Part shown: piece after piece, positions 56,665 to 61,233 of the stretch | How the letters are laid out: every line of letters starts with the position of its first letter | How positions within the stretch are numbered: the first letter of the stretch is position 1 | Source: Gossypium raimondii | Taxonomy: Eukaryota > Streptophyta > Magnoliopsida > Malvales > Malvaceae | Assembly (NCBI RefSeq): GCF_025698545.1 | Contig: NC_068567.1 | Span: 3,162,001 to 3,226,000 of the forward strand | DNA length: 64,000 nt | Direction of reading: 5' to 3' | The notes under the pieces: model-generated | The model's input: the letters and a program-made list of their open reading frames with translations, nothing else | The model's database searches: none | Told to the model about the DNA's origin: nothing | Program-made: the position numbers and the translations under genes

Positions 56665-57973
56665 CAATAATACTGGAAATGTCCACGGGCCTGCTCACAC
56701 AAGCTGTCAGGTGTCTGCAACACATGCTAGATCACCAAGCACCCGGGACTCACTGTAACACTGTAACACTGATCTCTAGTGACATGTCACTTGTATCCAC
56801 TTCTATTCCTAAGTTCAACCGGGAATTTACACTTAACACTTTATTTTAAACACTTTATCACTTGAATAATTCATGAACAATTTTCCTTCCACATTCAATA
56901 TTGATTCACATATCAAATAAAATTCACAATTTATAAAATATATTACTATTATTTACACATAACTTACCTCGGATGCAAAACGACTATTTTTGTAATTTAG
57001 TCGATAACTTTCTCTTTTCCCCGATCACTTGCACTATTTCTTCTTTCTTGATCTATATTAACACAATTTAATACATTTTATCAACATTTCATTCAAATAC
57101 AATTCATACACAACATTTTGGCAAATTTACATTTTTCCCCAAAACTTTTCAAAAATTCCACTTTTGTCCCTAAGCTCGTAAAAATAAAAGTCACTAAATT
57201 CTTAAATTTCAAACTTCACTAAATCATATTTCATGCTCATAACAGCCCTCAATTTCACAAAATCACAACTTTATGCACACTTTACCATCTTTCACAATTT
57301 AGCCCTTTTTCAACATTTTCATCAAAATTCATCTAGTAAAACTTGCAATTAACACTTCAAACATTCATTATCTAACATCACTAATCAATTTACAATTATA
57401 TCATGAATGGGTCAATTTTTAAACTTTAATTTCATTTAAATTAAATAATAGAAACATGAAATTCAAGCATCAATAAGCATAAAAATACGAAAATAGTTAA
57501 AAACGGGGCAAGAAATCACTTACAATTGAGCTTAGAAAAATCAAGAACCTTAGCTATGGTAACATGAAACTTTCGATAGCAAGCTTCTGATTTTGAAGAA
57601 GATGGACACTTACACTATGTTTGGTTTGGTGTATTGGCATAGCCAATACACCCCTAATCGGTGGGCCCCACCTAATCCGGCTCTATTCCGTCGTTTGGTT
57701 TGATGTATTGCTAATACGCGTGTAATCCATTACCTTCCTAATCGGTGAAAACCACCGATTTCTATTCCCCCTCTTTTGCCCAGATTAGCTAACGCTTCAG
57801 CAAACCTCCCTGTTTTACCCTCCCCCGATCCCCTTTGTTTCTCTTCTGTTCCTTCTAGCTTCATCCGCTTCTGGGTCTCCAGGTTACTGCAACTGTATAA
57901 GAGAAAGGCCTTTGTCTTCTAATTTCCTCATTCCGCACTTCGGTTCTCTCTCTTTGCGGCATCTATCATAGGT

Positions 57974-59413
57974 ATGGCGACAGCCATTGCAGCCCCTGCC
58001 AACGCCTCACTGCAAGACCCAACCAAGTCTCACCCTGACGTCAAGCTCTTCAATCGCTGGAGCTTCGAGGAAGTTCAAGTATTTCTTTTTCTTTTTCCCC
58101 CTTTTGCCTCTCTATGCATACATTTCTTTTTTCATTCTCTTGGCTTTGTTTTTTCTAGATTTTATATGAAATGTTCCGTTTTAGCATGTTCTCTATTTTT
58201 TTGGTCTTTTCAAGTCGAGTGGATCTACTAGGACTAATTAATTGTATACAGGGATTCTGTTTTCGTAGAGAATCGTTCATGTTGTTTTTAACTTGATATT
58301 ATTTGTTAGATCATCTTGTTGTGACTGAACATATATATTGTTGTTCTCTGATTTGAAGATTTTACTTGTTGTCTTTGATGTTACTGATATTCAGATTGAC
58401 AATTTATGTTAATCCTAAATGTTTGTCTTCATGTTTGTAAGAAATTGGTTAATTTTAGGTTAGATTATTTGGATAAGATGATCGTATTAGATTGTCTTTC
58501 GAATGCTTAAAGACTCCTGAAGATTCGAAAGAATTAGGTTCCTCAACTTGCTGTTCCCTTTGATAACTACAATTGTTAGCCCTGGTCCTTGATGTGAATG
58601 ATTTATCTATTTTAGGTTTCTGATATCTCTTTGAGTGACTACATTGGTGTTCAACCTTCCAAACATGCAACCTATGTGCCACACACTGCTGGGAGGTACT
58701 CAGTTAAGCGTTTTAGAAAGGCTCAGTGCCCCATTGTTGAGAGGCTTACAAACTCATTGATGATGCATGGCCGAAACAATGGAAAGAAACTTATGGCAGT
58801 CAGGATTGTGAAGCATGCTATGGAAATTATTTATCTCCTTTCAAGTCATTGTTGATGCCATCATCAACAGGTGGCCTATATGACCTTTAAGAATTTCCTT
58901 TTTCAAATGTATCACTAGCTGACTTTAATCTTTAAAGTAGCAGATGATGTTAATTAAAACATCTTCCAATTCTGGGTTATCTTTGTTGGATCAATCTTTG
59001 ATAATCCTTGTTGATTTTTGATTGATATAACAGTGGACCTCGTGAAGATGCTACTCGTATTGGTTCTGCTGGTGTTGTGAGGCGTCAGGCTGTTGATATT
59101 TCTCCTCTTCGTCGAGTGAATCAGGCCATCTATCTCCTCACCACTGGTGCTCGTGAGTCTGCGTTCAGAAACATTAAAACTATCGCTGAATGTTTGGCTG
59201 ATGAGCTTATTAACGCAGCAAAGGGATCATCTAACAGGTAAATAACAGCCTTTGAACTCCCGTGTTTGAACCTTATTTTGCTTTGAAACTAGGAACTGTC
59301 CTTGCAATCCCATTTATTTACCACAGCTTGCTTCATCATTCTCGCGTTGTTTGTGCAGCTATGCCATCAAGAAGAAGGACGAAATCGAGAGAGTTGCCAA
59401 GGCCAATCGTTGA
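57974..59413 (+). pseudogene. RPS5: 40S ribosomal protein S5 (uS7) gene copy, disrupted
   Basis: The four exons are 57974-58078, 58616-58869, 59034-59237 and 59359-59413, with GT-AG junctions. The protein reads MATAIAAPANAS, then [45 protein letters not shown] and [17 protein letters not shown], and finishes IERVAKANR, the plant S5 signature. In exon 2 about 17 nt are missing after MEIIYLLS (near 58842), across a 2-bp TC repeat. The frame then hits TGA at 58853-58855, leaving 114 residues of an expected 200-odd; downstream exons are otherwise clean. The leader (57840-57973) is rich in CTT/TTC, typical of ribosomal protein genes. Retained introns mean DNA-level capture, not retroposition. It lies inside a TIR element. 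Confidence 0.88.
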
Positions 59414-60049
59414 GGAATTGGTAGGACTTTGATAAACCATGGCAGTGGACACTTCTGTTTTTTATTCAGTACTTTATAAGTTACCTATTTTGTGTTCCGA
59501 ACATAATATGAATGTTCCGTTATTTAAGTTGAGATGTTATTGAAGAGACAAAGAGATGAGAGTGCTTGATGTGGTTGTTTTGACCACATTAAATCGCCCT
59601 GCCTGTTGCTGATAATTAGTACTTAAAAAAGAGACAATTAAAGGAAGAAATCAAATTGAGGAGCAGATGAAATTATACAAGTCTTTCAAAAATATTGTTA
59701 TGAATTTCTAACCCAGCCAATAGAAGCAAAGAAAAAAATATTAATTGGAGCAATTGTACAAACTTCTGTTTGAAGTTAAATACAAATGTCGTAACACTAT
59801 TGAAATCAAGCCTTTCAACCTGCATTAACAATGGAAGAGACTGCAGTTCATCAACGTCAAATTTTATATGTTTTATGAACATGATTCTTTCTATCTACAG
59901 ATACAGAAAAAAAATTTTGGAACTTTATACTACAAAAGTCAATTTAATAATCCCCGTTCTAATACTGCTTATGTTGTTTGGCTTGTTTCAGTTGGAAGTT
60001 CATCGAGAACAAACATTTTTCAAATTATATATTTTCAAATTTTCTTTTA

Positions 60050-60525
60050 TAGTATCATATATTATGATTTGAGTAAATTCATATAAGAATATTAATTATT
60101 AAGAATTTTATTAAATTATATATTTTAATTATAATATATTTAATAATAATTATGTTAATTTATATTTTACAAGTATCATATATTATGATTTGAGTAAATT
60201 CATATGAGAATATTAATTATTAAGAATTTTATTAAATTATATATTTTAATTATAATATATTTAATAATAATTATGTTTAAATATGATTAAATTATTTATT
60301 ATTGATATTAATAATCTTATTAAAATTTAAATAACAATAACAATAATAATTTACCAAAATAAATTTCGCTAATTATTAAGAATTTTATTAAATTATATTT
60401 TAATTAAAATATATTTAATAATAATTATGTTTAAATATGATTAAATTATTTATTATTGATAATAATAATCTTATTAAAATTTAAATAACAATAACAATAA
60501 TCATTTACCAAAACAAATTTATGCT
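60050..60525. repeat. Complex AT-rich tandem repeats at the element's right side
   Basis: AGTATCATATATTATGATTTGAG..AATAATTATGTT recurs with a period of about 121 bp (60051 and 60172). A second block (AAATATGATTAAATTATTTATT..AAATTTAAATAACAATAACAATAAT) recurs at about 60280 and 60435. They are non-coding and lie between the S5 gene and the right TIR. Confidence 0.8.
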
Positions 60526-61233
60526 AAGGGTATTCTAGTCATTTTAGTTTTTTCCAGTATGCTATTACACCTCTATTCCATTCAACCAAACACAAGATTA
60601 CTATTACGCCTCTATTCCATTACATTCAACCAAACAGTTGATTTGCTATTACACCTCTATTCCATTACACCTCTAATCCAATACAACGAACCAAACGTGC
60701 CCTTATTTTCTCTTTATTTTGTCTTTTTCCCAATTTGGACAAAAATGCCCTTGACCCATTACTTAGATATTTTTCTAGAAATACCCTTTTGTGTCCATAA
60801 CACTAATTTATGGTCTAATTCCACATAAACACTTCCAATTTCATGCAATAATTCAATTAAGTCATTTAATCACTAATTAGACACACTTTGCATTTTTCTT
60901 GATTTAGTCCTAAAAATTCAATTAGGCACTAAATCATTAAAATTTTCTATCCATACTTTCACACAATATTTCAATCAATCAGTAACTAATAAAAATTTAT
61001 AAAATTAAACTATTTCACTTCGGATTTATGGTTACGAAACCACTATTCCGATTAGGCACTATTTCGGGCTATCACAGTGTTGATTCTCTTCTTATTTATC
61101 TTTTTCACTCACTTATATTTGGACTTGTTATTCAAACTCTTCAGTTCTGTCCCAACTTCTATTCCAACAGAAGATAGAACAAAACTGTTTTGAACATTAA
61201 GTAGGAACGAAGTGCAAACTGAAAGCTTTTTCA

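Follow-up and report, generated by a model that had tools for sequence, protein, structure and literature searches.

A PIF/Harbinger transposon of Gossypium raimondii carrying a decayed, intron-bearing ribosomal protein S5 gene

How does a four-exon gene for ribosomal protein S5 (uS7) come to lie between the inverted ends of a mobile element, and is it still a working gene there? This question is raised by a 64,000-nucleotide stretch of the Gossypium raimondii genome (contig NC_068567.1, positions 3,162,001 to 3,226,000), referred to here as the window, in which a sequence-only reading had proposed that an element with terminal inverted repeats (TIRs) at 57613..60702 had taken up a near-complete S5 gene. 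The window element is a Pack-PIF, namely a non-autonomous PIF/Harbinger transposon with a host gene, since longer members of its family contain PIF/Harbinger transposase and Myb-like frames and it contains neither. To the full account, according to which S5 was acquired at the DNA level, the element was moved in trans, and the gene has since decayed, we assign a probability of roughly 0.93.

The S5-bearing element spans 3,090 bp (57613-60702) and displays inverted ends with a TTA duplication on both sides (Table 1). Its termini share the core GTTTGGTTNNNTGTATTGG with zero mismatches; the sole two occurrences of this core in the window, at 57619 (+) and 60678-60696 (-), sit one per element end and in opposite orientation. 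The 19-bp alignment of the ends scores 28, a value that none of 2000 dinucleotide shuffles attained (best shuffle, 25). The motif GTTTGGTT is reiterated within the element at 57619 and 57693 and, inverted, at 60584, 60628, and 60689; elsewhere in the window it occurs at 28690 and 53167 and, inverted, at 50463. The target-site duplication (TSD) of the window element is accepted because relatives cut at the same place show matching TNA duplications. The tandem repeats of the right arm (60012-60520) are AT-rich, with units of 121 and 154 bp, and are retained in family members. A search with the right-arm motif in viral_contigs matched 0 stretches, and Rfam and tRNA scans of the window returned no match.

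The relatives were identified by a DNA search with the whole element in a genome of 750,779,957 bases and 281 contigs, in which 40 of 2156 candidates were scored, so that the counts are lower bounds. Among the matches listed, the full element was found once, S5 together with the right arm at C1:40.69M, C2:29.56M, C10:15.88M, and C13:10.57M, and S5 without arms at C4:24.84M. The right arm of the window element is shared, at ~93-98% identity, by at least 34 S5-free loci counted from the match table. The comparison of ends proposed in the sequence-only reading therefore has a clear outcome: the ends recur elsewhere in the genome, and copies with the same ends exist both with and without S5. A sample of 21 elements was examined: the window element, the other four loci with S5, 15 loci with the right arm and no S5, and a single additional element; the C4 gene was fetched too. 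Both ends could be read in 13 of these, and no left end was found in the sequence examined for the other eight (L040, L044-L050). TIRs are common to the family members, and matching TNA duplications flank 12 of the 13 readable elements (TTA in seven, TAA in three, TCA in two). All five S5 elements occupy different sites, each with matching duplications. The proposal of a TIR element with a TTA duplication is thus borne out by the ends, which exceed all shuffles, and by the duplications of the relatives.

The family affiliation derives from the longer members. A DDE_Tnp_4 (PF13359) frame is present in L047 (8.9e-15), and the same frame appears in L038, L040, L046, L049 (part), and L050. Likewise, a Myb_DNA-bind_3 (PF12776) frame was detected in L037 (1.7e-11) and also in L038, L040, L045-L047, L049, and L050. 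Transposase and Myb-like pieces therefore occur together in six elements (L038, L040, L046, L047, L049, and L050), Myb-like pieces without transposase in L037 and L045, and a small transposase remnant in L036; neither frame was found in the examined sequence of L039, L041-L044, and L048. Within the window element, three transposase/Myb queries matched nothing better than E 0.5, in agreement with the earlier statement that no transposase lies inside. Its left arm (57693-57855) is 95% identical to that of the transposase-bearing L038, and a tree of low resolution places its right arm closest to those of L036 and L038. The window element was presumably moved in trans by the transposase of such relatives. 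The left terminus, CACTATG, recurs in L036. It also prompted consideration of a CACTA element, a candidate that was rejected: the right end is not of CACTA type, L036 has the same left end, and the transposase-bearing relatives are PIF/Harbinger.

The cargo is a single unbroken match to a TIR-less gene on C4, colinear with it through exons and introns, and its three introns have GT/AG borders. The predicted product, with an X placed over a deletion, matches Pfam Ribosomal_S7 (3.2e-39) and the plant uS7 chains in PDB (best, 1.4e-112). A four-exon S5 gene between the ends is thereby confirmed. Its description as near-complete holds insofar as all four exons and three introns are present, but the gene is not intact: a deletion of 17 nt in exon 2 shifts the frame and leads to a premature TGA at 58853-58855. 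These 17 nt and a stretch of ~78 bp in the 3' flank are both kept in the C1, C2, C13, and C4 copies; the C10 copy has its own small indels in the region of the exon 2 deletion. Having lost both segments, the window S5 is unable to make a normal uS7. Homology to C4 begins at 57896, 78 bp 5' of the ATG, and the sequence further upstream was not captured. The motif AAACCCTAA, which we take to be a telobox, stands just upstream of the captured segment in the C4 gene and is found nowhere in the window element; the probable promoter attributed to the element is accordingly unsupported. What remains is a gene cassette that is mobile but whose gene has decayed, rather than a functioning extra ribosomal gene. 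A protein search with the truncated frame gave no Gossypium name in the best 120 of 2568 rows, many of which are nameless.

The surroundings of the element provide a relative age. The element lies inside an older element of long terminal repeat (LTR) type at 55322-61076, with TG...CA ends and a 5-bp duplication, GTGTT; its minus orientation is assumed from the look of cotton LTRs. A local paralogue shows the flanks without this element, 52783-52967 matching 55127-55321 at 76% and 52963-53136 matching 61077-61249 at 77%. When joined computationally, the LTR flanks align across the joint with L051 at 64%, with gaps of 4 and 3 close to it; the alignments with L046 and L031 are looser, at ~61%. 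Because these LTR relatives run across the site without an S5 element, the LTR insertion predates the S5 element. The same observations bear on two other explanations, both of which were rejected. A native S5 gene lying by chance between two TIR-like sequences would be expected to be nearly complete and to have all its introns, as is the case here; it is nevertheless highly improbable, given that an LTR-type element with a GTGTT duplication of its own surrounds the gene, that S5 is flanked at four further places by the same arms, again with matching duplications, and that a TIR-less gene exists on C4. It is harder still to credit that the carrier of S5 was an LTR retroelement instead of a DNA transposon. 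Introns could survive in such a carrier if the gene lay antisense, and S5 does lie inside an LTR-type element read as running the opposite way; however, the PIF ends with TTA delimit precisely the unit that bears S5, S5 occurs between the same arms elsewhere, and the LTR relatives are without S5.

The nearest S5 gene outside the family, at C4:24841055-24843220, is 92% identical and has the same introns, which answers the intron comparison suggested by the sequence-only reading; no TIR-like ends were found around it in the 9 kb examined. Its exons are open in tblastn and include substitutions at conserved residues (A103T, I116V, and Q117K), for which reason the C4 gene is perhaps not the donor itself and may instead be a relative of it. 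Further S5 loci in the genome lie at C9:39.29M, C1:22.55-22.58M, and C1:48.84M. The C1, C2, C10, and C13 elements contain the gene from within exon 2 onward; all of exon 1 and intron 1 is missing, as is the beginning of exon 2, and a different sequence is joined to S5 exon 2 at the equivalent of ~58673. They also agree in an Asn codon of exon 3 at a position occupied by Ala in other S5 genes. Several copies, the condition under which the sequence-only reading regarded the element as a vehicle for duplicating a ribosomal protein gene, do exist, five at different sites, but the other four hold only part of the gene, joined to another sequence. This different 5' half, observed in L031, L032, L033, and L034 (four S5 elements) at element positions ~250-1225, includes a long intron-like stretch.

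Two backbone types can be distinguished among the S5-bearing elements; they belong to different right-arm groups (support 87/96, with most forks of the tree open), and their right S5 junctions differ by ~5 bp plus filler. The more probable history is a single S5 capture, after which S5 was exchanged between backbones. Alternatively, the same element class may have captured S5 twice, the whole gene in the window lineage and the portion from exon 2 in the C1/C2/C10/C13 lineage. The separate right-arm groups, the offset junctions, and the unlike left halves of the window and C1-type elements are all consistent with two events, an alternative that we regard as unlikely, if by no means negligible. 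However, the points at which the two types lose C4 homology lie no more than ~5 bp apart in a segment of 2.1 kb. Moreover, private noncoding changes number 8 in the window (of 842 sites, three of them in an A/T run), 19 in C4, and 6 shared by C1/C2/C13; these counts, made with no outgroup, group the element copies together under an informal clock.

Differences between the window and C4 amount to 3 of 421 exon sites and 28 of 820 other sites (Fisher P 0.003), those between the window and C1 to 12 of 421 and 18 of 872, respectively. The S5 exons were thus under constraint along the path between the window and C4, whereas none is evident in C1. The sole private exon change of the window is synonymous. 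Taken with the exon contrast, this might suggest a transposed S5 that was functional after the move and disabled just recently. We consider this improbable, inasmuch as the window branch is so short (8 private noncoding changes) that few exon changes would be expected in any case, the contrast is explained by constraint on the branches of C4 and the donor, and the upstream promoter region is missing.

The annotation of cotton 'S5' proteins may be affected as well. S5-like proteins of G. hirsutum and G. barbadense (P0004, P0005, P0006, and P0121) have the N-terminus of the window gene and substitutions at conserved residues, and P0006 contains 22 intron-3 residues, one residue different from the intron of the window. 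Compared outside the deletion, the cluster representatives P0004-P0006 depart from the window protein at 23 positions, a count limited to these three proteins, and 18 of these positions are explicable by single C-to-T or G-to-A changes in window codons.

Another member of the family holds a different gene. L039 (C2:33.34M; 3,587 bp, TAA/TAA) contains five exons of the gene for mitochondrial ATP synthase subunit d, each exon open and with GT after exons 1-4. The joined exons match PF05873 (1.4e-21) and subunit d chains in PDB (best, 1.7e-11). A search with this cargo, in which 40 of 478 candidates were scored, yielded at least 12 places interpreted as copies of the element, among which several are interrupted or incomplete. 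Three of these, L039, L041, and L056 (C7:5.43M), were checked at both ends, and the L041 copy is frameshifted. Around the subunit d relative L055 (C4:33.70M), no TIR was found in the 3.1 kb examined; homology to it begins 30 bp 5' of the ATG and, on the right side of the captured segment, C4 matches resume after a gap of ~180 bp. A more distant subunit d match among those listed lies at C1:19.41M. Given that sister copies hold either part of S5 or all of another housekeeping gene, host genes have been cargo of this family on more than one occasion. More speculatively, the family might repeatedly capture whole housekeeping transcription units, from near the transcription start through the stop codon and beyond, in the same sense as the element itself and just behind the left arm, with some copies possibly expressed as functional duplicates. 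This generalization fits the two cases at hand (S5 from 78 bp and subunit d from 30 bp 5' of the ATG, the latter with an open frame in L039), and we hold it as a doubtful, tentative proposal.

Several observations weigh against this overall interpretation of the window element. Its TTA pair is weak evidence by itself and could be due to chance (P ~0.03 for one given offset, 0.31 across offsets 0-12), and the flanks of L037 are unequal, the sole mismatch among the 13 readable elements. The transposase frames are fragmented in the copies read, and with several transposase and Myb-like frames broken, the longer members are no more than putative sources of transposase activity. The LTR relatives are distant, the C4 gene is a candidate donor, the nearest that survives, and with two backbone types and differing right junctions a single capture is not proven. 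With these points in view, the preferred history of the window element would begin with a capture. An ancestral element would have acquired the S5 gene as DNA, for example through two neighbouring elements moving as one unit or through gap repair. Transposase from relatives would then have mobilised the S5 element in trans. The position of the element inside the older LTR-type element, and the loss of 17 nt of exon 2 and ~78 bp downstream from its S5 copy, are seen in the sequence itself.

Table 1. Features of the window element, its surroundings, and its family, followed by other features of the window and of fetched loci.
Feature	Position	Strand	Remarks
Older LTR-type element, probably solo LTR	55322..61076	-	2,662 bp without insert; ends TGTAACACCC...GGCTATCACA
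GTGTT duplication of LTR-type element	55317-55321 and 61077-61081		
Local paralogue of flanks	52783..53136	+	site without LTR element
Left TSD copy, TTA	57610..57612	.	same cut position gives matching TNA in 12/13 family elements with both ends readable
Left arm of PIF/Harbinger element	57613..57895	+	TIR 57613-57637; motif repeated internally at 57693-57711
S5 (uS7) gene segment	57896..60002 (right limit approximate)	+	leader, 4 exons, 3 introns, 3' flank; single unbroken match to TIR-less C4 gene, 92% with gaps
S5 exon 1	57974..58078	+	ATG at 57974
S5 exon 2	58616..58870	+	private 17-nt deletion between 58839/58840; stop TGA 58853-58855
S5 exon 3	59034..59237	+	
S5 exon 4	59359..59413	+	stop TGA 59411-59413
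Private loss of ~78 bp in S5 3' flank	59545..59546	.	versus C4 and C1/C2/C13
Right arm	60003..60702	+	AT-rich tandem repeats 60012-60520; motif repeats 60573-60591, 60617-60635; TIR 60678-60702
Right TSD copy, TTA	60703..60705	.	letters at equal offset from element end as left copy
TTA duplications	window, C1, C2, C13, L036, L042, C7:5.43M		
TAA duplications	C10, L039, L043		
TCA duplications	L038, L041		
Ty1/copia-type element	2701-7485		broken frames (RVT_2, 9.7e-42); flanking direct repeats 183 bp, 93% identical
Two tandem cytochrome P450 genes	10392-12894 and 15628-17537		81% identical over 1.25 kb
Fold-back repeats	13291-15383		nested direct and inverted copies
Fold-back repeats	33369-33983		inverted pair, 79% alike
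Fold-back repeats	38185-38585		400-bp imperfect palindrome
Tandemly duplicated C1_2 (DC1) domain genes	40010-44882	-	
26S proteasome RPN2 gene frames	46021-49493	-	
MIR7502-like hairpin	L037:5864-5993		scores on both strands; outside transposon

Elements of this kind have precedents. Pack-PIF elements have been described in maize and rice (PMC8903248), and the window element resembles them in its PIF/Harbinger TIRs, in the mostly TTA/TAA duplications, in the lack of transposase, and in the presence of host DNA within copy families. The maize Pack-PIF family of one figure legend combines gene pieces of 163 bp and 58 bp (PMC8903248), whereas the window cargo is a 2.1-kb gene with all its introns. 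In cotton, the PIF/Harbinger element GosTE amplified MIR482/2118D, adding 22 copies to the G. raimondii genome (Shen et al. 2020, via PMC10004981 and PMC12030055). Host, superfamily, and the capture and multiplication of a host gene are common to both cases; the cargo of GosTE is in contrast a microRNA gene (PMC10004981, PMC12030055). No MIR482-like pattern was found in 57 sequence records, and Rfam MIR482 had no match in 18 loci (the GosTE sequence itself was not compared). Grapevine PIF elements (Pifvine-3) carry host exons and introns (PMC2528002), and such transduplicated exons and introns are, as here, common to several copies. Their extra DNA forms the 5' region of elements described as having PIF genes (PMC2528002), whereas in the window element S5 stands in place of the transposase and Myb-like frames. 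Pack-MULEs and Pack-CACTA elements likewise hold host DNA between TIRs and duplicate it by transposition, but they belong to other superfamilies, and their captured pieces are usually non-functional fragments (PMC13317346). For G. raimondii, GrTEdb records 435 PIF-Harbinger elements, and the main text of its report has no word beginning 'captur' (PMC5467567). A literature search covering titles and abstract openings, with most subscription papers beyond reach, returned no description of cotton PIF elements capturing either S5 or ATP synthase d.

Both Pack-PIF elements and the amplification of a microRNA gene by a cotton PIF element are on record, and what the window element adds is an unusually complete cargo together with a second gene in one family. 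Pack-type elements are known mostly for moving gene fragments, and here one PIF family carries two intron-bearing housekeeping genes. The family offers ample material for study: five S5 elements, at least 12 subunit d copies, one relative without TIRs for each gene, partners that contain transposase, and insert-free LTR relatives. The junctions of these copies could show how DNA transposons take up whole genes.

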